Shown here: in pieces, positions 1 to 55,500 of the stretch
Position numbering within the stretch: position 1 is the stretch's first letter
How the letters are laid out: each line of letters starts with the position of its first letter
Source: Holothuria scabra
Lineage: Eukaryota > Echinodermata > Holothuroidea > Aspidochirotida > Holothuriidae
DNA: 64,000 nucleotides
NCBI GenBank assembly: GCA_037179385.1
Contig: CM074185.1
Coordinates: 7,435,371-7,499,370, forward strand
Direction: 5' to 3'
Translations under genes and position numbers: made by a program
Notes under the pieces: generated by a model
The model's database searches: none
Seen by the model: the letters and a program-made list of their open reading frames with translations, nothing else
Told to the model about the DNA's origin: nothing

Positions 1-77
1 CGACTCGCTTTCTATCATGATTAAAAGATTAGTAAAAAGTAAGATATTCCCTAATAAATAATGAGACAACCTCTTTG

Positions 78-85
78 ATGCAAAT
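78..85. promoter_or_regulatory. Octamer motif ATGCAAAT (unit 1; repeated in units 2-14)
   Basis: An exact ATGCAAAT (reverse complement ATTTGCAT) occurs at unit position 78 in all full units and is deleted in unit 15. In animals the octamer binds Oct/POU factors and is typical of snRNA distal elements and histone promoters. Here it lies about 387 bp upstream of the TATATAA box, and about 360 bp upstream of the minus-strand U2-like segment of the preceding unit. An 8-mer can occur by chance; its position upstream of both candidates is the only reason to mark it. Confidence 0.4.
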
Positions 86-229
86 CAGCCAGACCTGAGA
101 CAAGATCCCAGAAAATGTTTCATTGATAAAATGAAATAAACCTCGACAGATGTATATAAAAATAAATTTTGAGTAAAGTTACAGTTACCTCAGTAGGTTT
201 AACTGTCCTCGTACGAACCAGAGAAATTG

Positions 230-254
230 TGACGTTCTAGTGACGTATCTGTCA
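230..254 (+). promoter_or_regulatory. Phased TGACGT half-sites (CRE/ATF-like)
   Basis: TGACGT occurs at 230-235 and 241-246 (11 bp apart, one helical turn), followed by an inverted half-site GTCA at 251-254. The arrangement is the same in every unit, including unit 15. CREB/ATF-family factors bind TGACG half-sites. The sites lie about 220 bp upstream of the TATA box. Function is inference. Confidence 0.35.
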
Positions 255-464
255 CATAAGCCTCCATTTAGAGCGAAAATGAGAAAAATAAAGAAGAAAC
301 ATCACTCGTAGAGGAAAATCTTGTCAAGAAACATGCAAAAATAATTAAAAACTTAATATACGAATATTTGATAAACGTAATTCTTTTATGCTAACACTAC
401 ATCTGGCTGAAAATTTTGCTTTGAAAATTCCACTCCAACGTGTGATAGATGCAGATGTTCAAGC

Positions 465-471
465 TATATAA
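465..471 (+). promoter_or_regulatory. TATA box TATATAA (unit 1; invariant in all 15 units)
   Basis: TATATAAGG sits at the AT-rich to GC-richer boundary and is unchanged in all fifteen copies (each unit start + 464, or 50576-50582 in unit 15). A start about 30 bp downstream would place transcription at the beginning of the conserved GC-richer stretch. No proximal sequence element was identified with confidence, so a Pol II and a Pol III (type 3) reading are both possible. Confidence 0.4.
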
Positions 472-494
472 GGCATCTTCTACTATAACCTGCG

Positions 495-756
495 TGGCAC
501 GCTGACGCCAAACCGGACGGTAGTGTTCACACATGGTCCTACTCTGATTGCACTGGGAGGCGAGTAGTGTTCCTCCCCAATGTATCGCCGGTCCTTGAGT
601 GGAGTCCCGAGGAAAGATTGCTGTCGTATGCAAAGCACGCTGAGCGTCACTGTATGCAGAAGGGTACTAGAGAGGCGCCTGAGTTGGTTCTCTGTTGTAG
701 TTGACAGGACACATAGCCGGCCAGAGACCTTGAACGCTTGGCTTCAATCTTTTGGG
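495..756 (+). ncRNA. Candidate non-coding transcript between TATA box and T-run (unit 1; one per unit)
   Basis: About 260 nt of comparatively GC-rich sequence lies between the TATATAA box and a T-run (757-765 here, T8-T22 in other units). TATA box, body and T-run resemble a Pol III type-3 gene. The body is nearly invariant across units apart from a few single-base changes. It does not match U1, U2, U4-U6, 7SK, 7SL, RNase P, MRP or U3 as I remember them. The plus-strand frame from ATG 580 would read into the variable T/GT repeat and ends at different lengths in different units, which argues against a protein. Boundaries are predicted from motif spacing only. The alternative is that it is an inert piece of satellite. 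Confidence 0.3.
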
Positions 757-778
757 TTTTGTTTTGTGTGTGTGTGTG
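757..778 (+). repeat. T-run plus GT microsatellite (unit 1; length varies in each unit)
   Basis: T4-G-T4 followed by about six GT repeats. The same position holds T9-C-T4 type tracts in most units, T22 in unit 10 and T17-(GT)12 in unit 12. It is the fastest-changing site in the otherwise conserved block. If the upstream transcript is real, the T-run would be its terminator. Confidence 0.85.
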
Positions 779-901
779 AGGCGCCACCTTGTAAAAGAAA
801 ATCGAAAAACCTAAATGAAGCACGATAAAGTACCTAACCCCCATTAATTTTTCCATTGACTTACACACAAAATCCAAAAAGAAAAGAGGGCCTCTAAAAG
901 G

Positions 902-922
902 CTTGTCAAAGTTTTCGACAAG
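902..922. other. Conserved small hairpin (unit 1, repeated in all units)
   Basis: CTTGTC and GACAAG form a perfect 6-bp inverted repeat with a 9-nt loop. Just upstream GCCT/AGGC (about 890-902) can form another short stem. Both are unchanged in all units. It does not fit the histone 3' stem-loop consensus. Confidence 0.4.
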
Positions 923-1788
923 TGCAAGCTACCAGTCATATGAAAGCTGACGAGTTGGCCATCCATGGCATTTTCAATTTTCCATATCATGACCGTGAAG
1001 ATATTTTTCTATTTTAGCTCAAAGTTCAATCACCCTTTTCCGGGCCTTGTTTTTCACTAAAAGCTTGGTATGCCTCCGCCGAATTCTAAAGCCCATAATT
1101 TCCACAAAAATGCTTCAATTAAGCTCATTTTTTCACCAGTGGTACTTCATTGAATATACTTTAATAAAAAGATTACAAAACACCCCATCATATTAGATAT
1201 CATATCAAAAAAGTGCTCTCTTTAGGAACCCTATCTGAGGGCGAACAAACGGGACCCATTAACACACCAGCTATACTGGGATATGCTCACAAAGGAGAAA
1301 AAAGACAAGAAAGCCCCCAGTTGGAAATGAAAACTTTTTAAAACAGACTTAACTGATGCTGCTTTGATTTCTCATTCCGAACAAATACCACCTTTATGGG
1401 TTAACGTGTAATGCATGCGCAGAGTAGCCTGGATAAAGGAAGGGTATGTGGGACAAGGGTGAGCTGGAGTCAATGATAAATAGGAAAGGATCGAGGGACC
1501 GTTAAATCGAGCAGCTGTTTAAGGTCGAAGGTGAATAGTTTTTCGAGTTCGTATGTAATATATCACCGTTCTCGGTTACTTTCTCAGATTGATTTATGTA
1601 TCTCTTTTTCTCGGCATCGCCTTACTCGACAAGCTCTCTTGATATTTCAGAGTGTTTATATACTTTCTCAATGTCCGTATTATATAATGTTCCTTTACTA
1701 TTTGTGTAACTTAACGTAAAAACTATTTCAAATATTATGAAACCCAATAAATGAATAGAAATGAAATCATGGATTAGCTAAAAGTGAT

Positions 1789-1818
1789 TCGACCCTCGAA
1801 TTTCGGACTTCGAGTCGA
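1789..1818. other. Imperfect palindrome in the variable region
   Basis: Left arm TCGACCCTCGAA and right arm TTCGAGTCGA pair except for bulges. In B-type units the right arm reads TTTGAGTCGA, which weakens the stem. The stem is therefore better kept in A-type copies and shows no sign of compensation. Confidence 0.4.
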
Positions 1819-1992
1819 TTATGTAGCCTGTAAAAAATAAGTTTTTATCTATGAAAAATTCGAAACAAAAGGCCAGATTTACCATTCTGGGCCTTGGACA
1901 GAAGTAAATTTGGGGCCCAGACTATAATTCTTTACCCGTGGAGTTATCGTGGAGAAAATAGCGTATTCGCCGGGATGGGCAAGTAGAAACCC

Positions 1993-2009
1993 GCCCCCCC
2001 CTCCCCCGG
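1993..2009. repeat. Poly-C rich tract, length-variable in each unit
   Basis: A C-rich run in the context CCCG..CCCC..CGGC occurs here in unit 1. B units carry it as CTCGTC(C)n with n from about 4 to 12 (for example around 37900, 41497 and 45075). Length differences change the frames of the short ORFs that cross it, so those ORFs are not conserved as proteins. Confidence 0.8.
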
Positions 2010-3189
2010 CTAAAGAAGGACTTCCAAAGAAATGATGAACTCAAACCAGCGGGGTGAAAAGAGGGCAAATTAGTAAAAGATTACGAAAAGGTAAAACGGA
2101 GATAAAGGGAAAGGTAGACGAAAGAAAGGAAACTATTTAGCTTAATATCAGAGAGACTGCTTGACTAGTTAACCCTTATTCGAGGAACTTATGAAAGTTA
2201 CATGTTATGCATTCAATTCCAATTAGTCAATGTTCGTCTGATTAACGCAGCAAAAGCTCTTCTCAGTTCCTTTTAACAATTCCTACATTTTCGCCCGTAA
2301 CATATATGTACCCATGACACCGCCTGTACAACACTGATGCCGTACTCCAGAGAATCAGTTATCGGACACTTTTCCAAATGAACTTAAGGTGTTAAACTAA
2401 TCTGATATCTCCGGGATTTGAAATTTGGGCAGGATCTGGACAATTGGGGCAAACCATGTTAGTATTAAGAAAAACAAATCAGATTTCTTTTAATTACGAA
2501 AATGCCCTCATCCAATCCATTCACACATTTGGCAGGAAAATTAGACAGAATCATAATGGGCAGGGCAAATATTTTAGGAAGGAAGAAGATTACAAAAATT
2601 TGCCTTATGTTAGGAAAACCAATGAAAAGACAATGTCAGCCCCAATCCAAATTTTTGCGTGCCGCACTTTGCCCAAAATAATAGATTATTCAAGCGAAAG
2701 TGAAAACCAAAATCTGCGACGTTTTTGATTGCCATATGACGGACAGACGGGGAGAGGGGTACATGTCATATATATGTCTTAATGCTTTAAAACATTTTTC
2801 CGAAAAGTGTTAGTACCGTAGTAGCCTATTTTGATCTATTAAGGTGTACCTTCTGTCAAATAATTCAAAAATATAACTTAAACAGCACGAAAAATGAATT
2901 CTTTCAGTCCAACTCCCATCTTCAAAGGACATTCTTGAGCCGACGTATAAATCGTTGACTTTTTTTTTTGAAGGGAAACTGTATTTACAATCACGGGCAT
3001 ATTTACACTATTTACAAAATTGAAATATGAAATCGAATAAAACAGAATAAAAATAAAATAAGTGAAAACATCATAACACAAACAAAATGTTGAAATTTAT
3101 TCACTTAAAGCAATTGAGTACATTGCGTAACAACAACTAGTGACAATTTTGTTGTGCGATTAACATTACCTGAAAGACCACACTTGGCC

Positions 3190-3308
3190 AATTCTTACCT
3201 CCCTAAGACCATTAAAAGATCATAGGTGTGTCATGTATGGCTCAATTGTAGACTGGAAGAATAGAAAAGATACTGCACATGTTCTCAGCCAAAGGGCCGA
3301 TCAGCTTT
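3190..3308 (-). ncRNA. U2 snRNA-like segment (pseudogene or derived RNA), one per full unit
   Basis: Read on the minus strand from 3308, the sequence aligns without gaps to U2 nucleotides 1-46 (human U2 recalled from memory) with about 35 matches. These include CGGCC-TTT-GGCT of stem I and AGTATCT next to the branch-point recognition site, where U2 GTAGTA reads GCAGTA. Stem I can still form: 9-24, 10-23, 11-22, 12-21, 13-20 and 14-19 pair around a CTTT loop, and the C10/A23 mismatch of U2 becomes C-G. The middle is diverged, but TAATGG and AGGGAGGTAAGAATTGG fall near the expected spacing of U2 AAATGG and AGGAGTTGGAATAGG. The Sm site ATTTTTGG is not recognisable. Equivalent copies are given in each unit entry. 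Most likely a decayed U2 gene or a U2-derived repeat, not a working U2. Confidence 0.5.
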
Positions 3309-3592
3309 TTCTAAATTCCCCCCGACCCTCTGGCAAAGGGCCGTTCGGCGAAACATAAGCTTTCGACCAAACTTTAAAATTTGCCTTCAATAAGCAAAGT
3401 TACGTGCGCCAGGAAACGAATTTTGTCCCAGAATTTGCAGGCCTGAACAAAATGACCTGATCTATTACACTAATAGGGATGATTATTTGAATTCTAGTTA
3501 TTTAAGTTGTAAATGGTTTGGTGTTCTCAGAATAACCCATCTAGAATTACATATCAACATTTATTAAACAAGTTGGTAACACCTTTTGAGAA

Positions 3593-6500
3593 CGACTCGC
3601 TTTCTATCATGATTAAAAGATTAGTAAAAAGTAAGATATTCCCTAATAAATAATGAGACAACCTCTTTGATGCAAATCAGCCAGACCTGAGACAAGATCC
3701 CAGAAAATGTTTCATTGATAAAATGAAATAAACCTCGACAGATGTATATAAAAATAAATTTTGAGTAAAGTTACAGTTACCTCAGTAGGTTTAACTGTCC
3801 TCGTACGAACCAGAGAAATTGTGACGTTCTAGTGACGTATCTGTCACATAAGCCTCCATTTAGAGCGAAAATGAGAAAAATAAAGAAGAAACATCACTCG
3901 TAGAGGAAAATCTTGTCAAGAAACATGCAAAAATAATTAAAAACTTAATATACGAATATTTGATAAACGTAATTCTTTTATGCTAACACTACATCTGGCT
4001 GAAAATTTTGCTTTGAAAATTCCACTCCAACGTGTGATAGATGCAGATGTTCAAGCTATATAAGGCATCTTCTACTATAACCTGCGTGGCACGCTGACGC
4101 CAAACCGGACGGTAGTGTTCACACATGGTCCTACTCTGATTGCACTGGGAGGCGAGTAGTGTTCCTCCCCAATGTATCGCCGGTCCTTGAGGGGAGTCCC
4201 GAGGAAAGATTGCTGTCGTATGCAAAGCACGCTGAGCGTCACTGTATGCAGAAGGGTACTAGAGAGGCGCCTGAGTTGGTTCTCTGTTGTAGTTGACAGG
4301 ACACATAGCCGGCCAGAGACCTTGAACGCTTGGCTTCAATCTTTTGGGTTTTTTTTTTCTTTTGTGTGTGTGTGTGAGGCGCCACCTTGTAAAAGAAAAT
4401 CGAAAAACCTAAATGAAGCACGATAAAGTACCTAACCCCCATTAATTTTTCCATTGACTTACACACAAAATCCAAAAAGAAAAGAGGGCCTCTAAAAGGC
4501 TTGTCAAAGTTTTCGACAAGTGCAAGCTACCAGTCATATGAAAGCTGACGAGTTGGCCATCCATGGCATTTTCAATTTTCCATATCATGACCGTGAAGAT
4601 ATTTTTCTATTTTAGCTCAAAGTTCAATCACCCTTTTCCGGGCCTTGTTTTTCACTAAAAGCTTGGTATGCCTCCGCCGAATTCTAAAGCCCATAATTTC
4701 CACAAAAATGCTTCAATTAAGCTCATTTTTTCACCAGTGGTACTTCATTGAATATACTTTAATAAAAAGATTACAAAACACCCCATCATATTAGATATCA
4801 TATCAAAAAAGTGCTCTCTTTAGGAACCCTATCTGAGGGCGAACAAACGGGACCCATTAACACACCAGCTATACTGGGATATGCTCACAAAGGAGAAAAA
4901 AGACAAGAAAGCCCCCAGTTGGAAATGAAAACTTTTTTAAAACAGACTAAACTGATGCTGCTTTGATTTCTCATTCCGAACAAATACCACCTTTATGGGT
5001 TAACGTGTAATGCATGCGCAGAGTAGCCTGGATAAAGGAAGGGTATGTGGGACAAGGGTGAGCTGGAGTCAATGATAAATAGGAAAGGATCGAGGGACCG
5101 TTAAATCGAGCAGCTGTTTAAGGTCGAAGGTGAATAGTTTTTCGAGTTCGTATGTAATATATCACCGTTCTCGGTTACTTTCTCAGATTGATTTATGTAT
5201 CTCTTTTTCTCGGCATCGCCTTACTCGACAAGCTCTCTTGATATTTCAGAGTGTTTATATACTTTCTCAATGTCCGTATTATATAATGTTCCTTTACTAT
5301 TTGTGTAACTTAACGTAAAAACTATTTCAAATATTATGAAACCCAATAAATGAATAGAAATGAAATCATGGATTAGCTAAAAGTGATTCGACCCTCGAAT
5401 TTCGGACTTCGAGTCGATTATGTAGCCTGTAAAAAATAAGTTTTTATCTATGAAAAATTCGAAACAAAAGGCCAGATTTACCATTCTGGGCCTTGGACAG
5501 AAGTAAATTTGGGGCCCAGACTATAATTCTTTACCCGTGGAGTTATCGTGGAGAAAATAGCGTATTCGCCGGGATGGGCAAGTAGAAACCCGCCCCCCCC
5601 TCCCCCGGCTAAAGAAGGACTTCCAAAGAAATGATGAACTCAAACCAGCGGGGTGAAAAGAGGGCAAATTAGTAAAAGATTACGAAAAGGTAAAACGGAG
5701 ATAAAGGGAAAGGTAGACGAAAGAAAGGAAACTATTTAGCTTAATATCAGAGAGACTGCTTGACTAGTTAACCCTTATTCGAGGAACTTATGAAAGTTAC
5801 ATGTTATGCATTCAATTCCAATTAGTCAATGTTCGTCTGATTAACGCAGCAAAAGCTCTTCTCAGTTCCTTTTAACAATTCCTACATTTTCGCCCGTAAC
5901 ATATATGTACCCATGACACCGCCTGTACAACACTGATGCCGTACTCCAGAGAATCAGTTATCGGACACTTTTCCAAATGAACTTAAGGTGTTAAACTAAT
6001 CTGATATCTCCGGGATTTGAAATTTGGGCAGGATCTGGACAATTGGGGCAAACCATGTTAGTATTAAGAAAAACAAATCAGATTTCTTTTAATTACGAAA
6101 ATGCCCTCATCCAATCCATTCACACATTTGGCAGGAAAATTAGACAGAATCATAATGGGCAGGGCAAATATTTTAGGAAGGAAGAAGATTACAAAAATTT
6201 GCCTTATGTTAGGAAAACCAATGAAAAGACAATGTCAGCCCCAATCCAAATTTTTGCGTGCCGCACTTTGCCCAAAATAATAGATTATTCAAGCGAAAGT
6301 GAAAACCAAAATCTGCGACGTTTTTGATTGCCATATGACGGACAGACGGGGAGAGGGGTACATGTCATATATATGTCTTAATGCTTTAAAACATTTTTCC
6401 GAAAAGTGTTAGTACCGTAGTAGCCTATTTTGATCTATTAAGGTGTACCTTCTGTCAAATAATTCAAAAATATAACTTAAACAGCACGAAAAATGAATTC

Positions 6501-7191
6501 TTTCAGTCCAACTCCCATCTTCAAAGGACATTCTTGAGCCGACGTATAAATCGTTGACTTTTTTTTTTGAAGGGAAACTGTATTTACAATCACGGGCATA
6601 TTTACACTATTTACAAAATTGAAATATGAAATCGAATAAAACAGAATAAAAATAAAATAAGTGAAAACATCATAACACAAACAAAATGTTGAAATTTATT
6701 CACTTAAAGCAATTGAGTACATTGCGTAACAACAACTAGTGACAATTTTGTTGTGCGATTAACATTACCTGAAAGACCACACTTGGCCAATTCTTACCTC
6801 CCTAAGACCATTAAAAGATCATAGGTGTGTCATGTATGGCTCAATTGTAGACTGGAAGAATAGAAAAGATACTGCACATGTTCTCAGCCAAAGGGCCGAT
6901 CAGCTTTTTCTAAATTCCCCCCGACCCTCTGGCAAAGGGCCGTTCGGCGAAACATAAGCTTTCGACCAAGCTTTAAAATTTGCCTTCAATAAGCAAAGTT
7001 ACGTGCGCCAGGAAACGAATTTTGTCCCAGAATTTGCAGGCCTGAACAAAATGACCTGATCTATTACACTAATAGGGATGATTATTTGAATTCTAGTTAT
7101 TTAAGTTGTAAATGGTTTGGTGTTCTCAGAATAACCCATCTAGAATTACATATCAACATTTATTAAACAAGTTGGTAACACCTTTTGAGAA
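3593..7191 (+). repeat. Array unit 2 (subgroup A)
   Basis: 3599 bp, nearly identical to unit 1 over its whole length, so the pair is a recent local duplicate. TATA 4057-4063; U2-like segment 6789-6907 (minus strand). The T-run is T10-C-T4 before the GT repeat. Confidence 0.95.
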
Positions 7192-10100
7192 CGACTCGCT
7201 TTCTATCATGATTAAAAGATTAGTAAAAAGTAAGATATTCCCTAATAAATAATGAGACAACCTCTTTGATGCAAATCAGCCAGACCTGAGACAAGATCCC
7301 AGAAAATGTTTCATTGATAAAATGAAATAAACCTCGACAGATGTATATAAAAATAAATTTTGAGTAAAGTTACAGTTACCTCAGTAGGTTTAACTGTCCT
7401 CGTACGAACCAGAGAAATTGTGACGTTCTAGTGACGTATCTGTCACATAAGCCTCCATTTAGAGCGAAAATGAGAAAAATAAAGAAGAAACATCACTCGT
7501 AGAGGAAAATCTTGTCAAGAAACATGCAAAAATAATTAAAAACTTAATATACGAATATTTGATAAACGTAATTCTTTTATGCTAACACTACATCTGGCTG
7601 AAAATTTTGCTTTGAAAATTCCACTCCAACGTGTGATAGATGCAGATGTTCAAGCTATATAAGGCATCTTCTACTATAACCTGCGTGGCACGCTGACGCC
7701 AAACCGGACGGTAGTGTTCACACATGGTCCTACTCTGATTGCACTGGGAGGCGAGTAGTGTTCCTCCCCAATGTATCGCCGGTCCTTGAGGGGAGTCCCG
7801 AGGAAAGATTGCTGTCGTATGCAAAGCACGCTGAGCGTCACTGTATGCAGAAGGGTACTAGAGAGGCGCCTGAGTTGGTTCTCTGTTGTAGTTGACAGGA
7901 TACATAGCCGGCCAGAGACCTTGAACGCTTGGCTTCAATCTTTTGGGTTTTTTTTTTTCTTTTTTTTGTGTGTGTGAGGCGCCACCTTTTAAAAGAAAAT
8001 CGAAAAACCTAAATGAAGCACGATAAAGTACCTAACCCCCATTAATTTTTCCATTGACTTACACACAAAATCCAAAAAGAAAAGAGGGCCTCTAAAAGGC
8101 TTGTCAAAGTTTTCGACAAGTGCAAGCTACCAGTCATATGAAAGCTGACGAGTTGGCCATCCATGGCATTTTCAATTTTCCATATCATGACCGTGAAGAT
8201 ATTTTTCTATTTTAGCTCAAAGTTCAATCACCCTTTTCCGGGCCTTGTTTTTCACTAAAAGCTTGGTATGCCTCCGCCGAATTCTAAAGCCCATAATTTC
8301 CACAAAAATGCTTCAATTAAGCTCATTTTTTCACCAGTGGTACTTCATTGAATATACTTTAATAAAAAGATTACAAAACACCCCATCATATTAGATATCA
8401 TATCAAAAAGTGCTCTCTTTAGGAACCCTATCTGAGGGCGAACAAACGGGACCCATTAACACACCAGCTATACTGGGATATGCTCACAAAGGAGAAAAAG
8501 ACAAGAAAGCCCCCAGTTGGAAATGAAAACTTTTTCAAACAGACTAAACTGATGCTGCTTTGATTTCTCATTCCGAACAAATACCACCTTTATGGGTTAA
8601 TGTGTAATGCATGCGCAGAGTAGCCTGGGTAAAGGAATGGTATGTGGGACGAGGGTGAGCTGGAGTCAATGATAATTAGGGAGGGATCGAGGACCCGTAA
8701 AATCATCGAGCAGCTGTTTAAGGTCGAAGGTGAATAGTTTTTCGTGTTCGTATGTAATATCACCGTTCTCGGTTACTTTATCAACTTGATTTATGTATCT
8801 CTATTTCTCGGCATCACCTTACTCGACAAGCTCTCTTGATATTTCAGAGTGTTTTTATACTTTCTCACTGTCTTTGTATTATATAATGTTCCTTTACTAC
8901 TTGTGTAACTTACTGTAAAAACTATTTCAAATATTGTGAAACCCAATAAATGAAAAGAAATGCAATCATGGATTAGCTAAAAGTTGATTCGACCCTCGAA
9001 TTTCGGACTTTGAGTCGATTACGTAGCCTGTTAATCAGAAGTTATTAGGCTATCTATGAAATCCGAAAAACAAGGCCAGATTTATCATTCTGGGCCTTGG
9101 ACGGAAGTAAATTTGGGGCCCACACTATAACTCTTTTCCCGTGGTGTTATCGTGGAGAAAATAGCGTATTTGCCGGGATGGACAAGTGGAAACTCGTCCC
9201 CACACCTCACCCGGCCAAAGAAGAGCTTCCAAAGAGATGATGAACTCAAACCAGCGGGTTGAAAAGAGGACAAATTAAGAGAAGGTGAAACGGAGATTAA
9301 GTGAAAGGAAGACGAAAGAAAGGAAACTATTTAGCTTAATATCGGAGAAGCCGCTTGACTAGTTTATCCGTATTCGAGGAACTTATTAAAGTTACGTGTA
9401 ATGCATTAAATTCCAATCAATCAATGTTCGTCTGATTAACGCAGCAAAAAGTTCTTTTCAGTTCCTTTTAGCAATTCCTACATTTTCACCCGTAACATAA
9501 TGTACCCATGACACCGCCTGTACAACACTGATGCCGTACTCCAGAGAATCAGTTATCGGACACTTTTCCAAATGAACTTAAGGTGTTTAACTAAGCTGAT
9601 ATCTTCGGGATTTGAAATTTGGGCAGGATCTGGACAATTCGGGCAAACCATGTTACTTTTAAGACAAAAAACAAATAAGATTTCTTTTAATTACGAAAAA
9701 GCTCTCATCCAATCCATTCACACATTTGGCAGGAAAATTAGACAGAGTCATAGTCGGCATGGCAAACTTTTTAGGAAGGAAGAAGATTACAAAAATTTGC
9801 TTTATGGTAGGGAAACCTATGAAAAGACAATGTAAGCCCCAGTCCATATTTTTGCGTGCCGCACTTTGCCCGAAATAATAGATTATTCAAGAGAGAGTGA
9901 AAAATAAAAATCCGCGACGTTTTTGATTGCCATATGACGGGGCAGACGGGGAGAGGGATACATGTCATATATATGTCTTTATGCTTTAAAACATTTGTCC
10001 GAAAAGTGGTAGTACTGTAGTAGCCTATTTTGATCTATTTAAGTGTACCTCCAGTCGAATAATTCAAAAATATAATTTTAAAAGCACGAAAAATAAAATC

Positions 10101-10793
10101 TTTCAGTCCAACTCCCATCTTCAAAGGACATTCTTGAGCCGAGATATAAAACGTTGACCTGTTTTTTTAAGGGAAACTGTATTTACAATCACGAGTATAT
10201 TTACACTATTTACAAATTAAATTGAAATATGAAATCGAATAAAATAGAATAAAAATGAAATAAGTGAAAACATCATAACACAAAACAAAATGTTGAAATT
10301 TATTCACTTAAAACAATTGAGTACATTGCGTAACAACAACTAGTGACAATTTTGTTGTGCGATTAACATTACCTGAAGGACCACACTTGACCAATTCTCA
10401 CCGCCCTCAGACCATTAAAAGATCATTGGTGTGTCATGTATGGCTCAATTCTAGATTGGAAGAATAGAAAAGATATTGCACATGTTTTCAGCCAAAGGGC
10501 CGATCAGCTTTTTCTAAAGTCCCCGACCCTCTGGCAAAGGGCCGTTCGGCGAAACATAAGCTTTCGACCAAACTTTAAAATTTGCCTTCAATAAGCAAAG
10601 TTACGTGCGCCAGGAAACGAATTTTGTCCCAGAATTTGCAGGCCTGAACAAAATGACCTGATCTATTACACTAATAGGGATGATTACTTGAATTATATTT
10701 ATTTAAGTTGTAAATGGTTTGGTGTTCTCAGAATAACCCATCTAGAATTACATATCAACATTTATTAAACAAGTTGGTAACACCTTTTGAGAA
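7192..10793 (+). repeat. Array unit 3 (transitional A to B)
   Basis: 3602 bp. TATA 7656-7662; U2-like segment 10393-10511 (minus strand). The first 1.4 kb and some diagnostic sites up to about 8630 match subgroup A. The rest of the variable region is B-type but still has the 22-bp segment deleted in units 5-14, so it resembles an ancestral B copy. Confidence 0.94.
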
Positions 10794-13700
10794 CGACTCG
10801 CTTTCTATCATGATTAAAAGATTAGTAAAAAGTAAGATATTCCCTAATAAATAATGAGACAACCTCTTTGATGCAAATCAGCCAGACCTGAGACAAGATC
10901 CCAGAAAATGTTTCATTGATAAAATGAAATAAACCTCGACAGATGTATATAAAAATAAATTTTGAGTAAAGTTACAGTTACCTCAGTAGGTTTAACTGTC
11001 CTCGTACGAACCAGAGAAATTGTGACGTTCTAGTGACGTATCTGTCACATAAGCCTCCATTTAGAGCGAAAATGAGAAAAATAAAGAAGAAACATCACTC
11101 GTAGAGGAAAATCTTGTCAAGAAACATGCAAAAATAATTAAAAACTTAATATACGAATATTTGATAAACGTAATTCCTTTATGCTTACACTACATCTGGC
11201 TGAAAATTTTGCTTTGAAAATTCCACTCCAACGTGTGATAGATGCAGATGTTCAAGCTATATAAGGCATCTTCTGCTATAACCTGCGTGGCACGCTGACG
11301 CCAAACCGGACGGTAGTGTTCACACATGGTCCTACTCTGATTGCACTGGGAGGCGAGTAGTGTTCCTCCCCAATGTATCGCCGGTCCTTGAGGGGAGTCC
11401 CGAGGAAAGATTGCTGTCGTATGCAAAGCACGCTGAGCGTCACTGTATGCAGAAGGGTACTAGAGAGGCGCCTGAGTTGGTTCTCTGTTGTAGTTGACAG
11501 GACACATAGCCGGCCAGAGACCTTGAACGCTTGGCTTCAATCTTTTGGGTTTTTTTTTCTTTTGTGTGTGTGAGGCGCCACCTTGTAAAAGAAAATCGAA
11601 AAACCTAAATGAAGCACGATAAAGTACCTAACGCCCATTAATTTTTCCATTGACTTACACACAAAATCCAAAAAGAAAAGAGGGCCTCTAAAAGGCTTGT
11701 CAAAGTTTTCGACAAGTGCAAGCTACCAGTCATATGAAAGCTGACGAGTTGGCCATCCATGGCATTTTCAATTTTCCATATCATGACCGTGAAGATATTT
11801 TTCTATTTTAGCTCAAAGTTCAATCACCCTTTTCCGGGCCTTGTTTTTCACTAAAAGCTTGGTATGCCTCCGCCGAATTCTAAAGCCCATAATTTCCACA
11901 AAAATGCTTCAATTAAGCTCATTTTTTCACCAGTGGTACTTCATTGAATATACTTTAATAAAAAGATTACAAAACACCCCATCATATTAGATATCATATC
12001 AAAAAGTGCTCTCTTTAGGAACCCTATCTGAGGGCGAACAAACGGGACCCATTAACACACCAGCTATACTGGGATATGCTCACAAAGGAGAAAAAGACAA
12101 GAACGCCCCCAGTTGGAAATGAAAACTTTTTCAAACAGACTTAACTGATGCTGCTTTGATTTCTCATTCCGAACAAATACCACCTTTATGGGTTAATGTG
12201 TAATGCATGCGCAGAGTAGCGTGGGTAAAGGAATGGTATGTGGGACGAGGGTGAGCTGGAGTCAATGATAATTAGGGAGGGATCGAGGACCCGTAAAATC
12301 ATCGAGCAGCTGTTTAAGGTCGAAGGTGAATAGTTTTTCGTGTTCGTATGTAATATCACCGTTCTCGGTTACTTTCTCAGATTGATTTATGTATCTCTTT
12401 TTCTCGGCATCGCCTTACTCGACAAGCTCTCTTGATATTTCAGAGTGTTTATATACTTTCTCAATGTCCGTATTATATAATGTTCCTTTACTATTTGTGT
12501 AACTTAACGTAAAAACTATTTCAAATATTATGAAACCCAATAAATGAATAGAAATGAAATCATGGATTAGCTAAAAGTGATTCGACCCTCGAATTTCGGA
12601 CTTCGAGTCGATTATGTAGCCTGTAAAAAATAAGTTTTTATATATGAAAAATTCGAAACAAAAGGCCAGATTTACCATTCTGGGCCTTGGACAGAAGTAA
12701 ATTTGGGGCCCAGACTATAATTCTTTACCCGTGGAGTTATCGTGGAGAAAATAGCGTATTTGCCGGGATGGGCAAGTAGAAACCCGCCCCCCCCCTTCCC
12801 CCGGCTAAAGAAGGACTTCCAAAGAAATGATGAACTCAAACCAGCGGGGTGAAAAGAGGGCAAATTAGTAAAAGATTACGAAAAGGTAAAACGGAGATAA
12901 AGGGAAAGGTAGACGAAAGAAAGGAAACTATTTAGCTTAATATCAGAGAGACTGCTTGACTAGTTAACCCTTATTCGAGGAACTTATGAAAGTTACATGT
13001 TATGCATTCAATTCCAATTAGTCAATGTTCGTCTGATTAACGCAGCAAAAGCTCTTCTCAGTTCCTTTTAACAATTCCTACATTTTCGCCCGTAACATAT
13101 ATGTACCCATGACACCGCCTGTACAACACTGATGCCGTACTCCAGAGAATCAGTTATCGGACACTTTTCCAAATGAACTTAAGGTGTTAAACTAATCTGA
13201 TATCTCCGGGATTTGAAATTTGGGCAGGACCTGGACAATTGGGGCAAACCATGTTAGTATTAAGACAAAAAACAAATCAGATTTCTTTTAATTACGAAAA
13301 TGCTCTCATCCAATCCATTCACACATTTGGCAGGAAAATTAGACAGAATCATAATGGGCAGGGCAAACTTTTTAGGAAGGAAGAAGATTACAAAAATTTG
13401 CCTTATGTTAGGAAAACCAATGAAAAGACAATGTCAGCCCCAATCCATATTTTTGCGTGCCGCACTTTGCCCAAAATAATAGATTATTCAAGAGAAAGTG
13501 AAAACCAAAAATCCGCGACGTTTTTGATTGCCATATGACGGACAGACGGGGAGAGGGATACATGTCATATATATGTCTTAATGCTTTAAAACATTTGTCC
13601 GAAAAGTGTTAGTACTGTAGTAGCCTATTTTGATCTATTTAGGTGTACCTTCTGTCAAATAATTCAAAAATATAATTTAAAAAGCACGAAAAATGAATTC

Positions 13701-14398
13701 TTTCAGTCCAACTCCCATCTTCAAAGGACATTCTTGAGCCGAGATATAAAACGTTGACCTGTTTTTTTTTTGAAGGGAAACTGTATTTACAATCACGAGT
13801 ATATTTACACTATTTACAAATTAAATTGAAATATGAAATCGAATAAAATAGAATAAAAATAAAATAAGTGAAAACATCATAACACAAAACAAAATGTTGA
13901 AATTTATTCACTTAAAGCAATTGAGTACATTGCGTAACAACAACTAGTGACAATTTTGTTGTGCGATTAACATTACCTGAAGGACCACACTTGACCAATT
14001 CTCACCTCCCTCAGACCATTAAAAGATCATAGGTGTGTCATGTATGGCTCAATTGTAGATTGGAAGAATAGAAAAGATATTGCACATGTTTTCAGCCAAA
14101 GGGCCGATCAGCTTTTTCTAAAGTCCCCCGACCCTCTGGCAAAGGGCCGTTCGGCGAAACATAAGCTTTCGACCAAACTTTAAAATTTGCCTTCAATAAG
14201 CAAAGTTACGTGCGCCAGGAAACGAATTTTGTCCCAGAATTTGCAGGCCTGAACAAAATGACCTGATCTATTACACTAATAGGGATGATTATTTGAATTA
14301 TATTTATTTAAGTTGTAAATGGTTTGGTGTTCTCAGAATAACCCATCTAGAATTACATATCAACATTTATTAAACAAGTTGGTAACACCTTTTGAGAA
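10794..14398 (+). repeat. Array unit 4 (B/A/B mosaic)
   Basis: 3605 bp, the longest unit. TATA 11258-11264; U2-like segment 13997-14115 (minus strand). It is B-type up to about 12370, switches to A-type wording through about 13680, and then mixes A and B sites to the end. The 22-bp segment is retained. This is a recombinant unit. Confidence 0.94.
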
Positions 14399-17300
14399 CG
14401 ACTCGCTTTCTATCATGATTAAAAGATTAGTAAAAAGTAAGATATTCCCTAATAAATAATGAGACAACCTCTTTGATGCAAATCAGCCAGACCTGAGACA
14501 AGATCCCAGAAAATGTTTCATTGATAAAATGAAATAAACCTCGACAGATGTATATAAAAATAAATTTTGAGTAAAGTTACAGTTACCTCAGTAGGTTTAA
14601 CTGTCCTCGTACGAACCAGAGAAATTGTGACGTTCTAGTGACGTATCTGTCACATAAGCCTCCATTTAGAGCGAAAATGAGAAAAATAAAGAAGAAACAT
14701 CACTCGTAGAGGAAAATCTTGTCAAGAAACATGCAAAAATAATTAAAAACTTAATATACGAATATTTGATAAACGTAATTCCTTTATGCTAACACTACAT
14801 CTGGCTGAAAATTTTGCTTTGAAAATTCCACTCCAACGTGTGATAGATGCAGATGTTCAAGCTATATAAGGCATCTTCTACTATAACCTGCGTGGCACGC
14901 TGACGCCAAACCGGACGGTAGTGTTCACACATGGTCCTACTCTGATTGCACTGGGAGGCGAGTAGTGTTCCTCCCCAATGTATCGCCGGTCCTTGAGGGG
15001 AGTCCCGAGGAAAGATTGCTGTCGTATGCAAAGCACGCTGAGCGTCACTGTATGCAGAAGGGTACTAGAGAGGCGCCTGAGTTGGTTCTCTGTTGTAGTT
15101 GACAGGACACATAGCCGGCCAGAGACCTTGAACGCTTGGCTTCAATCTTTTGGGTTTTTTTTTCTTTTGTGTGTGTGTGTGAGGCGCCACCTTGTAAAAG
15201 AAAATCGAAAAACCTAAATGAAGCACGATAAAGTACCTAACCCCCATTAATTTTTCCATTGACTTACACACAAAATCCAAAAAGAAAAGAGGGCCTCTAA
15301 AAGGCTTGTCAAAGTTTTCGACAAGTGCAAGCTACCAGTCATATGAAAGCTGACGAGTTGGCCATCCATGGCATTTTCAATTTTCCATATCATGACCGTG
15401 AAGATATTTTTCTATTTTAGCTCAAAGTTCAATCACCCTTTTCCGGGCCTTGTTTTTCACTAAAAGCTTGGTATGCCTCCGCCGAATTCTAAAGCCCATA
15501 ATTTCCACAAAAATGCTTCAATTAAGCTCATTTTTTCACCAGTGGTACTTCATTGAATATACTTTAATAAAAAGATTACAAAACACCCCATCATATTAGA
15601 TATCATATCAAAAAAGTGCTCTCTTTAGGAACCCTATCTGAGGGCGAACAAACGGGACCCATTAACACACCAGCTATACTGGGATATGCTCACAAAGGAG
15701 AAAAAGACAAGAACGCCCCCAGTTGGAAATGAAAACTTTTTCAAACAGACTTAACTGATGCTGCTTTGATTTCTCATTCCGAACAAATACCACCTTTATG
15801 GGTTAATGTGTAATGCATGCGCAGAGTAGCGTGGGTAAAGGAATGGTATGTGGGACGAGGGTGAGCTGGAGTCAATGATAATTAGGGAGGGATCGAGGAC
15901 CCGTAAAATCATCGAGCAGCTGTTTAAGGTCGAAGGTGAATAGTTTTTCGTGTTCGTATGTAATATCACCGTTCTCGGTTACTTTATCAACTTGATTTAT
16001 GTATCTCTATTTCTCGGCATCACCTTACTCGACAAGCTCTCTTGATATTTCAGAGTGTTTTTATACTTTCTCACTGTCTTTGTATTATATAATGTTCCTT
16101 TACTACTTGTGTAACTTACTGTAAAAACTATTTCAAATATTGTGAAACCCAATAAATGAAAAGAAATGCAATCATGGATTAGCTAAAAGTTGATTCGACC
16201 CTCGAATTTCGGACTTTGAGTCGATTACGTAGCCTGTTAATCAGAAGTTATTAGGCTATCTATGGAAATCCGAAAAACAAGGCCAGATTTATCATTCTGG
16301 GCCTTGGACGGAAGTAAATTTGGGGCCCACACTATAACTCTTTTCCCTTGGTGTTATCGTGGAGAAAATAGCGTATTTGCCGGGATGGACAAGTGGAAAC
16401 TCGTCCCCCCACCCCACCCGGCCAAAGAAGAGCTTCCAAAGAGATGATGAACTCAAACCAGCGGGTTGAAAAGAGGACAAATTAAGAGAAGGTGAAACGG
16501 AGATTAAGTGAAAGGAAGACGAAAGAAAGGAAACTATTTAGCTTAATATCGGAGAAGCCGCTTGACTAGTTTATCCGTATTCGAGGAACTTATTAAAGTT
16601 ACGTGTAATGCATTAAATTCCAATCAATCAATGTTCGTCTGATTAACGCAGCAAAAAGTTCTTTTCAGTTCCTTTTAGCAATTCCTACATTTTCACCCGT
16701 AACATAATGTACCCATGACACCGCCTGTACAACACCGATGCCGTACTCCAGAGAATCAGTTATCGGACACTTTTCCAAATGAACTTAAGGTGTTTAACTA
16801 AGCTGATATCTTCGGGATTTGAAATTTGGGCAGGATCTGGACAATTCGGGCAAACCATGTTACTTTTAAGACAAAAAACAAATAAGATTTCTTTTAATTA
16901 CGAAAAAGCTCTCATCCAATTCATTCACACATTTGGCAGGAAAATTAGACAGAGTCATAGTCGGCATGGCAAACTTTTTAGGAAGGAAGAAGATTACAAA
17001 AATTTGCTTTATGGTAGGGAAACCTATGAAAAGACAATGTAAGCCCCAGTCCATATTTTTGCGTGCCGAACTTTGCCTGAAATAATAGATTATTCAAGAG
17101 AGAGTGAAAAATAAAAATCCGCGACGTTTTTGATTGCCATATGACGGGGCAGACGGGGAGAGGGATACATGTCATATATATGTCTTTATGCTTTAAAACA
17201 TTTGTCCGAAAAGTGGTAGTACTGTAGTAGCCTATTTTGATCTATTTAAGTGTACCTCCAGTCGAATAATTCAAAAATATAATTTTAAAAGCACGAAAAA

Positions 17301-17978
17301 TAAAATCTTTCAGTCCAACTCCCATCTTCAAAGGACATTCTTGAGCCGAGATATAAAACGTTGACCTGTTTTTTAAGGGAAACTGTATTTACAATCACGA
17401 GTATATTTACACTATTTACAAATTAAATTGAAATATGAAATCGAATAAAATAGAATAAAAAATGAAATAAGTGAAAACATCATAACACAAAACAAAATGT
17501 TGAAATTTATTCACTTAAAACAATTGAGTGACAATTTTGTTGTGCGATTAACATTACCTGAAGGACCACACTTGACCAATTCTCACCGCCCTCAGACCAT
17601 TAAAAGATCATTGGTGTGTCATGTATGGCTCAATTCTAGATTGGAAGAATAGAAAAGATATTGCACATGTTTTCAGCCAAAGGGCCGATCAGCTTTTTCT
17701 AAAGTCCCCGACCCTCTGGCAAAGGGCCGTTCGGCGAAACATAAGCTTTCGACCAAACTTTAAAATTTGCCTTCAATAAGCAAAGTTACGTGCGCCAGGA
17801 AACGAATTTTGTCCCAGAATTTGCAGGCCTGAACAAAATGACCTGATCTATTACACTAATAGGGATGATTACTTGAATTATATTTATTTAAGTTGTAAAT
17901 GGTTTGGTGTTCTCAGAATAACCCATCTAGAATTACATATCAACATTTATTAAACAAGTTGGTAACACCTTTTGAGAA
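14399..17978 (+). repeat. Array unit 5 (subgroup B1, first with the 22-bp deletion)
   Basis: 3580 bp. TATA 14863-14869; U2-like segment 17578-17696 (minus strand). First unit from the left that lacks the 22-bp segment (junction at about 17528). Carries the B1 markers shared with units 6-10, such as CCCTTGGTG near 16346 and GCCGAACTTTGCCTG near 17065. Confidence 0.95.
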
Positions 17979-20900
17979 CGACTCGCTTTCTATCATGATT
18001 AAAAGATTAGTAAAAAGTAAGATATTCCCTAATAAATAATGAGACAACCTCTTTGATGCAAATCAGCCAGACCTGAGACAAGATCCCAGAAAATGTTTCA
18101 TTGATAAAATGAAATAAACCTCGACAGATGTATATAAAAATAAATTTTGAGTAAAGTTACAGTTACCTCAGTAGGTTTAACTGTCCTCGTACGAACCAGA
18201 GAAATTGTGACGTTCTAGTGACGTATCTGTCACATAAGCCTCCATTTAGAGCGAAAATGAGGAAAATAAAGAAGAAACATCACTCGTAGAGGAAAATCTT
18301 GTCAAGAAACATGCAAAAATAATTAAAAACTTAATATACGAATATTTGATAAACGTAATTCCTTTATGCTTACACTACATCTGGCTGAAAATTTTGCTTT
18401 GAAAATTCCACTCCAACGTGTGATAGATGCAGATGTTCAAGCTATATAAGGCATCTTCTGCTATAACCTGCGTGGCACGCTGACGCCAAACCGGACGGTA
18501 GTGTTCACACATGGTCCTACTCTGATTGCACTGGGAGGCGAGTAGTGTTCCTCCCCAATGTATCGCCGGTCCTTGAGGGGAGTCCCGAGGAAAGATTGCT
18601 GTCGTATGCAAAGCACGCTGAGCGTCACTGTATGCAGAAGGGTACTAGAGAGGCGCCTGAGTTGGTTCTCTGTTGTAGTTGACAGGATACATAGCCGGCC
18701 AGAGACCTTGAACGCTTGGCTTCAATCTTTTGGGTTTTTTTTTCTTTTTTTTTGTGTGTGTGAGGCGCCACCTTTTAAAAGAAAATCGAAAAACCTAAAT
18801 GAAGCACGATAAAGTACCTAACCCCCATTAATTTTTCCATTGACTTACACACAAAATCCAAAAAGAAAAGAGGGCCTCTAAAAGGCTTGTCAAAGTTTTC
18901 GACAAGTGCAAGCTACCAGTCATATGAAAGCTGACGAGTTGGCCATCCATGGCATTTTCAATTTTCCATATCATGACCGTGAAGATATTTTTCTATTTTA
19001 GCTCAAAGTTCAATCACCCTTTTCCGGGCCTTGTTTTTCACTAAAAGCTTGGTATGCCTCCGCCGAATTCTAAAGCCCATAATTTCCACAAAAATGCTTC
19101 AATTAAGCTCATTTTTTCACCAGTGGTACTTCATTGAATATACTTTAATAAAAAGATTACAAAACACCCCATCATATTAGATATCATATCAAAAAAGTGC
19201 TCTCTTTAGGAACCCTATCTGAGGGCGAACAAACGGGACCCATTAACACACCAGCTATACTGGGATATGCTCACAAAGGAGAAAAAGACAAGAACGCCCC
19301 CAGTTGGAAATGAAAACTTTTTCAAACAGACTTAACTGATGCTGCTTTGATTTCTCATTCCGAACAAATACCACCTTTATGGGTTAATGTGTAATGCATG
19401 CGCAGAGTAGCGTGGGTAAAGGAATGGTATGTGGGACGAGGGTGAGCTGGAGTCAATGATAATTAGGGAGGGATCGAGGACCCGTAAAATCATCGAGCAG
19501 CTGTTTAAGGTCGAAGGTGAATAGTTTTTCGTGTTCGTATGTAATATCACCGTTCTCGGTTACTTTATCAACTTGATTTATGTATCTCTATTTCTCGGCA
19601 TCACCTTACTCGACAAGCTCTCTTGATATTTCAGAGTGTTTTTATACTTTCTCACTGTCTTTGTATTATATAATGTTCCTTTACTACTTGTGTAACTTAC
19701 TGTAAAAACTATTTCAAATATTGTGAAACCCAATAAATGAAAAGAAATGCAATCATGGATTAGCTAAAAGTTGATTCGACCCTCGAATTTCGGACTTTGA
19801 GTCGATTACGTAGCCTGTTAATCAGAAGTTATTAGGCTATCTATGGAAATCCGAAAAACAAGGCCAGATTTATCATTCTGGGCCTTGGACGGAAGTAAAT
19901 TTGGGGCCCACACTATAACTCTTTTCCCTTGGTGTTATCGTGGAGAAAATAGCGTATTTGCCGGGATGGACAAGTGGAAACTCGTCCCCCACCCCACCCG
20001 GCCAAAGAAGAGCTTCCAAAGAGATGATGAACTCAAACCAGCGGGTTGAAAAGAGGACAAATTAAGAGAAGGTGAAACGGAGATTAAGTGAAAGGAAGAC
20101 GAAAGAAAGGAAACTATTTAGCTTAATATCGGAGAAGCCGCTTGACTAGTTTATCCGTATTCGAGGAACTTATTAAAGTTACGTGTAATGCATTAAATTC
20201 CAATCAATCAATGTTCGTCTGATTAACGCAGCAAAAAGTTCTTTTCAGTTCCTTTTAGCAATTCCTACATTTTCACCCGTAACATAATGTACCCATGACA
20301 CCGCCTGTACAACACCGATGCCGTACTCCAGAGAATCAGTTATCGGACACTTTTCCAAATGAACTTAAGGTGTTTAACTAAGCTGATATCTTCGGGATTT
20401 GAAATTTGGGCAGGATCTGGACAATTCGGGCAAACCATGTTACTTTTAAGACAAAAAACAAATAAGATTTCTTTTAATTACGAAAAAGCTCTCATCCAAT
20501 TCATTCACACATTTGGCAGGAAAATTAGACAGAGTCATAGTCGGCATGGCAAACTTTTTAGGAAGGAAGAAGATTACAAAAATTTGCTTTATGGTAGGGA
20601 AACCTATGAAAAGACAATGTAAGCCCCAGTCCATATTTTTGCGTGCCGAACTTTGCCTGAAATAATAGATTATTCAAGAGAGAGTGAAAAATAAAAATCC
20701 GCGACGTTTTTGATTGCCATATGACGGGGCAGACGGGGAGAGGGATACATGTCATATATATGTCTTTATGCTTTAAAACATTTGTCCGAAAAGTGGTAGT
20801 ACTGTAGTAGCCTATTTTGATCTATTTAAGTGTACCTCCAGTCGAATAATTCAAAAATATAATTTTAAAAGCACGAAAAATAAAATCTTTCAGTCCAACT

Positions 20901-21559
20901 CCCATCTTCAAAGGACATTCTTGAGCCGAGATATAAAACGTTGACCTGTTTTTTTAAGGGAAACTGTATTTACAATCACGAGTATATTTACACTATTTAC
21001 AAATTAAATTGAAATATGAAATCGAATAAAATAGAATAAAAATGAAATAAGTGAAAACATCATAACACAAAACAAAATGTTGAAATTTATTCACTTAAAA
21101 CAATTGAGTGACAATTTTGTTGTGCGATTAACATTACCTGAAGGACCACACTTGACCAATTCTCACCGCCCTCAGACCATTAAAAGATCATTGGTGTGTC
21201 ATGTATGGCTCAATTCTAGATTGGAAGAATAGAAAAGATATTGCACATGTTTTCAGCCAAAGGGCCGATCAGCTTTTTCTAAAGTCCCCCGACCCTCTGG
21301 CAAAGGGCCGTTCGGCGAAACATAAGCTTTCGACCAAACTTTAAAATTTGCCTTCAATAAGCAAAGTTACGTGCGCCAGGAAACGAATTTTGTCCCAGAA
21401 TTTGCAGGCCTGAACAAAATGACCTGATCTATTACACTAATAGGGATGATTACTTGAATTATATTTATTTAAGTTGTAAATGGTTTGGTGTTCTCAGAAT
21501 AACCCATCTAGAATTACATATCAACATTTATTAAACAAGTTGGTAACACCTTTTGAGAA
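17979..21559 (+). repeat. Array unit 6 (subgroup B1)
   Basis: 3581 bp. TATA 18443-18449; U2-like segment 21158-21276 (minus strand). Private A>G in the A-rich stretch near 18261. Otherwise almost identical to units 5, 7 and 9. Confidence 0.95.
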
Positions 21560-24500: not shown

Positions 24501-25140
24501 TCTTGAGCCGAGATATAAAACGTTGACCTGTTTTTTTAAGGGAAACTGTATTTACAATCACGAGTATATTTACACTATTTACAAATTAAATTGAAATATG
24601 AAATCGAATAAAATAGAATAAAAATGAAATAAGTGAAAACATCATAACACAAAACAAAATGTTGAAATTTATTCACTTAAAACAATTGAGTGACAATTTT
24701 GTTGTGCGATTAACATTACCTGAAGGACCACACTTGACCAATTCTCACCGCCCTCAGACCATTAAAAGATCATTGGTGTGTCATGTATGGCTCAATTCTA
24801 GATTGGAAGAATAGAAAAGATATTGCACATGTTTTCAGCCAAAGGGCCGATCAGCTTTTTCTAAAGTCCCCGACCCTCTGGCAAAGGGCCGTTCGGCGAA
24901 ACATAAGCTTTCGACCAAACTTTAAAATTTGCCTTCAATAAGCAAAGTTACGTGCGCCAGGAAACGAATTTTGTCCCAGAATTTGCAGGCCTGAACAAAA
25001 TGACCTGATCTATTACACTAATAGGGATGATTACTTGAATTATATTTATTTAAGTTGTAAATGGTTTGGTGTTCTCAGAATAACCCATCTAGAATTACAT
25101 ATCAACATTTATTAAACAAGTTGGTAACACCTTTTGAGAA
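21560..25140 (+). repeat. Array unit 7 (subgroup B1)
   Basis: 3581 bp. TATA 22024-22030; U2-like segment 24740-24858 (minus strand). Nearly identical to units 6 and 9, differing mainly in homopolymer lengths. Confidence 0.95.
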
Positions 25141-28100: not shown

Positions 28101-28718
28101 GTTGACCTGTTTTTTAAGGGAAACTGTATTTACAATCACGAGTATATTTACACTATTTACAAATTAAATTGAAATATGAAATCGAATAAAATAGAATAAA
28201 AATGAAATAAGTGAAAACATCATAACACAAAACAAAATGTTGAAATTTATTCACTTAAAACAATTGAGTGACAATTTTGTTGTGCGATTAACATTACCTG
28301 AAGGACCACACTTGACCAATTCTCACCGCCCTCAGACCATTAAAAGATCATTGGTGTGTCATGTATGGCTCAATTCTAGATTGGAAGAATAGAAAAGATA
28401 TTGCACATGTTTTCAGCCAAAGGGCCGATCAGCTTTTTCTAAAGTCCCCGACCCTCTGGCAAAGGGCCGTTCGGCGAAACATAAGCTTTCGACCAAACTT
28501 TAAAATTTGCCTTCAATAAGCAAAGTTACGTGCGCCAGGAAACGAATTTTGTCCCAGAATTTGCAGGCCTGAACAAAATGACCTGATCTATTACACTAAT
28601 AGGGATGATTACTTGAATTATATTTATTTAAGTTGTAAATGGTTTGGTGTTCTCAGAATAACCCATCTAGAATTACATATCAACATTTATTAAACAAGTT
28701 GGTAACACCTTTTGAGAA
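25141..28718 (+). repeat. Array unit 8 (subgroup B1, with a foreign patch)
   Basis: 3578 bp. TATA 25605-25611; U2-like segment 28318-28436 (minus strand). Between about 25853 and 25997 it carries a dense cluster of substitutions around the T-run and GT repeat, while both flanks match its neighbours almost perfectly. See the finding on the conversion patch. Confidence 0.95.
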
Positions 28719-31700: not shown

Positions 31701-32297
31701 AACTGTATTTACAATCACGAGTATATTTACACTATTTACAAATTAAATTGAAATATGAAATCGAATAAAATAGAATAAAAATGAAATAAGTGAAAACATC
31801 ATAACACAAAACAAAATGTTGAAATTTATTCACTTAAAACAATTGAGTGACAATTTTGTTGTGCGATTAACATTACCTGAAGGACCACACTTGACCAATT
31901 CTCACCGCCCTCAGACCATTAAAAGATCATTGGTGTGTCATGTATGGCTCAATTCTAGATTGGAAGAATAGAAAAGATATTGCACATGTTTTCAGCCAAA
32001 GGGCCGATCAGCTTTTTCTAAAGTCCCCGACCCTCTGGCAAAGGGCCGTTCGGCGAAACATAAGCTTTCGACCAAACTTTAAAATTTGCCTTCAATAAGC
32101 AAAGTTACGTGCGCCAGGAAACGAATTTTGTCCCAGAATTTGCAGGCCTGAACAAAATGACCTGATCTATTACACTAATAGGGATGATTACTTGAATTAT
32201 ATTTATTTAAGTTGTAAATGGTTTGGTGTTCTCAGAATAACCCATCTAGAATTACATATCAACATTTATTAAACAAGTTGGTAACACCTTTTGAGAA
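28719..32297 (+). repeat. Array unit 9 (subgroup B1)
   Basis: 3579 bp. TATA 29183-29189; U2-like segment 31897-32015 (minus strand). The poly-C tract near 30724 is longer and purer than in units 6-8. Otherwise a standard B1 copy. Confidence 0.95.
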
Positions 32298-33053: not shown

Positions 33054-33088
<35 letters not shown>

Positions 33089-55486: not shown

Positions 55487-55500
55487 GGGGGGGGGGGGGG
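55487..55500 (+). repeat. Poly-G14 tract at the LINE 5' coding edge
   Basis: Fourteen G between AACTC and ATGG. It encodes the Gly run at the start of the open frame and makes the native start impossible to place. Confidence 0.85.

Follow-up and report, generated by a model that had tools for sequence, protein, structure and literature searches.

Background

To our knowledge, SINEs nearly always borrow a tRNA, 5S or 7SL promoter, and those headed by an snRNA form a small class known from crocodilians only. The crocodilian SINEU elements, reportedly described by Kojima in 2015, are said to have heads derived from U1 or U2 snRNA; these heads were reportedly acquired repeatedly, and insertion into another repeat is said to be preferred. 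The repeat family described here resembles SINEU in that its head is copied from an snRNA gene and in being non-coding and dispersed. It differs in occurring in another animal phylum and in having a U2 head only, and the likeness is to the description of SINEU rather than to the sequence of its body or tail. No report of a U2-headed SINE in holothurians or other echinoderms was met among the papers listed in literature searches, which constitutes weak evidence of absence.

Other links between U2 and repeats are described in PMC4640811: U2_sat, a satellite of sea squirts derived from a U2 gene, and Utopia and Keno, non-LTR retrotransposons (LINEs) that target U2 genes. Utopia is reported there from sea urchins and a starfish, the U2 sequence after its insertions beginning at nt 39 (PMC4640811). 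The present locus shares with U2_sat the form of a satellite with U2-derived sequence, and with Utopia and Keno the joining of a retroelement to U2 sequence. Unlike in U2_sat, the U2 part here appears to have come as a SINE head, ~50 nt of a 3.6-kb unit, and unlike Utopia, whose 3' flank starts at U2 nt 39, U2 nt 1-51 belong to the element itself. Measured against the Rfam U2 family (RF00004), stem I and the branch-point region are recognisable in the copy studied here, but it lacks the 3' half, the Sm site and a detectable promoter, and scores below the cut-off.

A U2-like segment in the units of a tandem array

The window, a 64,000-nt stretch of Holothuria scabra DNA (C7:7435371-7499370, in a searched assembly of 1.19 Gb and 31 contigs), contains a head-to-tail array of ~3.6-kb units (Table 1). 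The array copies are 93-100% alike, and the array runs on leftwards beyond the window, with matches to C7:7427118. A first-pass annotation had proposed that each unit carries a U2 snRNA-like segment on the minus strand, matching the 5' end of U2 without gaps at about 35 of 46 bases and beyond chance. These observations hold. Of the 15 array copies present, 14 contain the segment and the 15th is cut within it at 53302; in copy 1 the match runs from 3308 down to ~3259. Compared without gaps to nt 1-46 of human-type U2, copies c01 and c02 are identical at 36/46 positions, c03-c13 at 34/46 and c14 at 35/46, and the top ungapped score in the unit (+1/-1) is 27, compared with 10-17 from 300 dinucleotide shuffles.

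Table 1. Positions in the window of the array and of the SINE-derived features within it
Feature	Position	Strand	Remarks
~3.6-kb unit array, head-to-tail	1..53302	.	14 full copies and a partial 15th
U2-derived SINE head, copy 1 (U2 nt 4-51)	3258..3305	-	83% over 47 nt to host U2
SINE body, first ~88 nt, copy 1	3170..3257	-	consensus 4-139 on 3305-3170, 76%, E 3e-23
3' tail of another SINE copy, adjoining head upstream	3305..3354	-	48/50 to SINE tail; RNAfold hairpins
Tail-head-body block, copy 2	6769..6953	-	SINE consensus match
Tail-head-body block, copy 3	10373..10555	-	SINE consensus match
Tail-head-body block, copy 4	13977..14160	-	SINE consensus match
Tail-head-body block, copy 5	17558..17740	-	SINE consensus match
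Tail-head-body block, copy 6	21138..21321	-	SINE consensus match
Tail-head-body block, copy 7	24720..24902	-	SINE consensus match
Tail-head-body block, copy 8	28298..28480	-	SINE consensus match
Tail-head-body block, copy 9	31877..32059	-	SINE consensus match
Tail-head-body block, copy 10	35469..35652	-	SINE consensus match
Tail-head-body block, copy 11	39053..39236	-	SINE consensus match
Tail-head-body block, copy 12	42644..42827	-	SINE consensus match
Tail-head-body block, copy 13	46226..46409	-	SINE consensus match
Tail-head-body block, copy 14	49809..49992	-	SINE consensus match
SINE body remnant, partial 15th copy, array end	53273..53302	-	30 nt at 90%

The covariance model of U2, suggested earlier as a check, gives a divided answer: RF00004 ranks first of 4227 families by cmscan, but at 23.4 bits against a cut-off of 46 (E 0.08 with 3.7 kb searched, 0.017 with 0.8 kb), and nothing in the window reaches any family's gathering score in this search of Rfam. 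Alignment to the host's true U2, suggested likewise, extends over 47 nt; of the two units tested, the one of type A has 83% identity and the one of type B 79% (see below for the unit types). Both the window copy and host U2 read ATCATGTG, with T at nt 30, where the Rfam consensus has AUCAAGUG; this T, shared with the host and missing from the Rfam consensus, independently points to true homology. Neither the window variant nor canonical U2 turned up in exact-pattern scans of viral contigs.

The weaker similarity that had been noted around U2 nt 95-120 does exist (20/30 over U2 91-120 at the expected spacing, nominal 0.002 after the fact), but the window place facing U2 95-120 aligns to a SINE body, not to U2. 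U2 49-90 and 121-188 match the window at chance level. When gaps are allowed, U2 from nt 49 onward scores 30, not above shuffles (95% point 43.5), and restriction to U2 49-125 gives a borderline 30 vs 29.

The last array copy (50231-53302) is without unit positions 47-164 and stops inside the SINE body; the flank beyond starts AAATTCCCGCGG. The array end at 53302 was considered as an empty site of the U2 segment and rejected, the shared AAATTC being short and the flank otherwise unrelated.

A dispersed family with a U2 head

A 501-nt query around the segment, for which the best 40 of 2,262 candidates were scored, brought up relatives of the array at C7:12.39-12.42 Mb and C7:11.59-11.61 Mb, together with single matches on C7, C16, C17 and C23. 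The last three contigs preserve the U2 part much better (58.3, 54.2, 51.0 and 50.7 bits on C17, C16 and C23, all over the RF00004 cut-off); the copy at C7:8.56 Mb (L014) scores 29.1 bits. The head of the C17 copy is identical to host U2 nt 4-51 at 48/48 positions, with non-U2 sequence beyond. Using this copy and its upstream part as query, with the best 40 of 3,747 first-look candidates scored, at least 69 matches on at least 19 of the 31 contigs were obtained; those over 220 nt have 84-100% identity, and short pieces go down to 79%.

The dispersed element is ~228 nt long and non-coding, consisting of U2 nt 1-51, a ~127-nt non-U2 body and a ~50-nt tail with two predicted hairpins, which ends TTTAGAAAAA (TTTAGAAAAAG, GGTCGGGAGGACTTTAGAAAAA tail). 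A consensus built from 27 near-full-length copies has 225 nt and starts at U2 nt 4 (head 48 nt), several copies carrying U2's ATC before this point. The consensus head is identical to host U2 nt 4-51 at 48/48 positions, and the alignment of U2 to the element stops there. Young copies are nearly identical to one another. A 25-nt pattern spanning the head/body junction, with at most one mismatch, has 2,489 matches (1,206 forward and 1,283 reverse), compared with 0 for the reversed pattern. Nine copies in four dispersed loci were scored against RF00004, of which seven are over the cut-off (48.8-65.9 bits) and two below (41.3 and 35.0). For the 14 copies listed from outside the window array, the corresponding figures are 11 (48.8-65.9) and three (41.3, 35.0 and 29.1), true U2 scoring 186.1. 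Array copies score 26.2 bits in L009 and have no match at E 0.5 in L010 and L012. A scan of the element for an internal pol III promoter found a best A box of 10/12 and a best B box of 7/11 in an unconvincing arrangement.

Consensus nt 4-139 matches all 14 full units of the window at 76-79% (E 3e-23 to 1e-26), while the match of U2 to the same segment is far weaker (E 2e-8 for the tested unit of type A, 1e-6 for that of type B). In all 14 the head is immediately preceded by consensus nt 179-228, the tail of another copy, at 96-98%; in copy 1 this tail contains two predicted hairpins and ends TTTAGAAAAAG, and AAA stands at 3308-3306, just ahead of the head, where U2 has ATC. The 3' part of the SINE body is missing from the units, with array-specific sequence in its place. 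The first-pass annotation had named a better match to an unrelated repeat family as the outcome that would speak against its U2 reading; the SINE is such a better match, though the family itself carries U2 sequence.

Insertion hallmarks

Two samples of the family bear on its mode of insertion. The tandem sample comprises 20 clusters from the top matches of a tandem-type query, and is hence biased to tandem copies. Fifty copies (>=90%) in it reach the 3' end, 29 of these starting at query nt 1-4, and 23/50 share at least 6 nt between their flanks, compared with 10.9% when flanks are re-paired. The same short word lies between neighbouring copies in several clusters (e.g. L049, L052, L058 and L063), as expected if each copy inserted at the same place in turn. 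The less biased C1 sample consists of 20 of the first 26 C1 places listed, all with the exact junction; of the remainder, two are in a cluster already covered and four others were omitted. Twelve of the 20 start at consensus nt 1-5 and the rest further in, and 14 end no more than 6 nt from where the consensus stops. Among the 20 alignment rows reaching the end, which include some neighbouring copies or tail pieces, six have flanking repeats of at least 7 nt, compared with 4% when re-paired, and 14 do not. Where present, the flanking repeats are variable (7-16 nt). They come from dispersed copies, with no target-site repeat established for the window's own copy. Taken together, the common 3' end, the starts at U2 nt 1-5 and the flanking repeats are the marks of a SINE. 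Pattern-bearing C1 copies range from 72% to 100% identity to the consensus, implying that the family holds both young and old members.

The same flank, TAGCCCTTAACATTATGCTGGC or near it, is found beside SINE copies in L049, L059, L073, L075 and L086, and a flank like GTTTTGTCGAAAGCTT, which resembles the window at ~3375-3355 (minus), is common to L053, L061 and L065. These recurring flanks suggest preferred insertion into particular repeats. A second SINE-like family is present in the same clusters, its tail being ~76-82% like the first and its head vaguely U2-like; it was seen at L015:4420-4220 (minus) and in L016, L055, L057, L059, L060, L063, L064, L066, L067, L072 and L083.

The host's U2 genes

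An RF00004 search of the host genome, limited to scoring the best 46 of 80,574 first-look candidates, identified at least 46 U2 genes, all at C1:4296014-4398411, with 182.9-186.6 bits and in a ~727-bp tandem array. Thirty loci were fetched; U2 nt 1-51 are identical among them, and the SINE tail is absent from all 30. A comparison of the 3.6-kb unit with the U2 repeat (-300 to +427) yields the 47-nt head as the sole significant match, others having E 0.15 or worse. One 6.4-kb stretch of the U2 array without scored U2 matches, inspected for U2-targeting LINEs, holds just further U2 repeats. A proximal sequence element had been anticipated at 3355-3375 of the window; no U2-like promoter is detectable upstream of the head (true U2 -75..-36 against 100 nt, 154/200 shuffles equal or better), although a divergent element might escape this comparison, and the 50 nt immediately upstream are SINE tail (Table 1).

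Variation between units and related arrays

The units of the window are of two types, A (c01, c02 and c04) and B (the rest). Between c01 and c07 there are 162 substitutions, only 6 of them in 1-1300, and c04 is a mosaic, which looks like exchange between units. Constraint was considered as the cause of the near-identity of A and B over 1-1300, but the 11 B copies vary there too (variable columns: 38 in 1,573 bp, or 16 when the slippage stretch at 700-830 is left aside, compared with 34 in 2,019 bp), so that an exchange tract is likelier. Within the head, the two types differ at 2/46 sites, both away from U2 in B, with c14 having only one of these changes.

Two diverged arrays on C7 retain, at the corresponding places, the tail and those 88 nt of body, with a more degraded head between, too decayed to be found with a head query yet alignable. 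The body match breaks at one and the same place in L010-L013, and long pieces of the arrays are 75-83% alike. This common positioning of tail, body and break indicates that both capture and truncation of the block predate the divergence of the arrays. At L011:1985-1810 (minus), in the 12.4-Mb array, a young SINE (head 98% and body 100% to the L015 copy) lies beside the old block, having inserted later into a unit of this kind. A further array, with a period of ~2.7-3 kb, was seen in L016 (C16:31710000-31718000), containing pieces of the 3.6-kb unit and young SINEs in direct and inverted orientation.

The window array, the two other C7 arrays, L014 and L017 have in common a C at U2 nt 34, where young copies match U2. 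The 20-copy C1 sample was selected with a pattern that requires T at this position. It is conceivable, though rather doubtful, that a recently active holothurian SINE repeatedly retakes its 5' end from U2 snRNA by template switching, which would leave old heads drifted and young ones U2-identical, and that this element, having no obvious internal promoter, stacks head-to-tail by inserting at its own ends.

Origin of the segment

The window segment is very probably a SINE copy that has degenerated, the SINE being headed at its 5' end by the first ~51 nt of host U2 snRNA. U2 would thus have entered the unit as the 5' head of a retroposed element. A LINE reverse transcriptase recognising the tail may copy such elements by target-primed reverse transcription, and the U2 head would have been born when the enzyme switched template onto U2 RNA. 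SINE copies may then have accumulated one behind another in the ancestral unit, after which a rearrangement would have removed the 3' half; the unit would later have been amplified as a satellite, with the SINE fossil drifting along in it. Having no tail of its own, the window copy should not be mobile.

The clear U2 homology of the 5' part, and the tandem arrangement of the host's real U2 genes, would also be expected if the unit held a U2 pseudogene, or if the array were a U2 gene array decayed in place. This is very improbable, as the homology ends at U2 nt 51 and is followed by a body common to ~2,500 dispersed copies, neither the promoter side nor the 3' flank of U2 has a significant match in the unit, the upstream sequence is SINE tail, and the length and sequence of the unit are unrelated to those of the ~727-bp U2 repeat. 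The first-pass annotation was right about the U2 ancestry. Its suggestion that a U2 gene founded the array, or was captured by it, is not supported: the host's U2 array is elsewhere, on C1, and only the 47-nt head of the unit matches its repeat. Production from each unit of a U2-like snRNA, functional though divergent, or of a decoy RNA is barely credible on the sequence. Stem I and some of the branch-point region can be made out, and a hairpin is predicted at the stem I region, but the score is half the family cut-off and the conserved 5' block of U2 (stem I, GUAGUA) is altered, with GCAGTA or GCAATA for GTAGTA among other changes. The highly conserved U2 nt 25-46 depart from host U2 at three sites in A units and up to five in B. 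The Sm site (AUUUUUGG) is absent from the aligned place in the RF00004 alignment of cmscan, there is no promoter match, and the 3' stem-loops are absent, the body there being non-U2. The predicted fold is ordinary (z -0.80; 41/200 shuffles fold equally well), and the divergence of the head between unit types is close to that of the whole unit (2/46 vs 162 in ~3.6 kb). Judged on these features, the array segment is not a splicing RNA: nothing in its score, branch-point block, Sm site or promoter supports a U2 role.

The dispersed family might itself not be a retroposed SINE, and instead have been spread by DNA transposition or recombination, or consist of satellite fragments. Many copies do lie in tandem clusters, inverted copies occur at L016, and a clear flanking repeat is missing from most sampled rows. 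Such an origin is nevertheless quite unlikely, given matches that start at U2 nt 1, copies that are truncated at the 5' side but share a fixed 3' end, flanking repeats that vary in length (7-16 nt) where present, and an occurrence on at least 19 of the 31 contigs and on both strands.

An apparently young U2-headed SINE in an echinoderm, with ~2,500 junction copies, would suggest that this route to a new element arose more than once. It also offers a system in which to study the transcription of a SINE that has no obvious internal pol III promoter, and the possible renewal of heads from snRNA. A practical caution is that U2 matches over the Rfam cut-off (48.8-65.9 bits here) can be SINE heads.

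Other sequences in the unit and its flank

A permissive Rfam search of the whole unit for other structured RNAs returned, besides U2, two matches with E 7 and 9.5, and no tRNA genes were found in the unit. Protein-coding content was rejected as well, comparison of 7 of the 21 unit ORFs with Pfam giving one insignificant match (E 0.06). At 466-760 of the window (plus strand), TATATAAG is followed by a GC-richer stretch of ~260 nt with a terminal T run, in the units inspected. A plus-strand RNA gene after TATATAAG at ~466 was considered and rejected, 495-755 folding no better than shuffles (z +0.96) and having no Rfam match.

A frameshifted LINE occupies 55461-58672 (plus strand); it matches endonuclease and reverse transcriptase and, below threshold, a PHD finger. 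The top named matches of this right-flank reverse transcriptase are from Holothuria leucospilota (67% and 74% identity over 74% and 59% of the query), followed by Apostichopus japonicus (61% over 71% of the query), and by molluscs and two bacterial bins at 44-49%.
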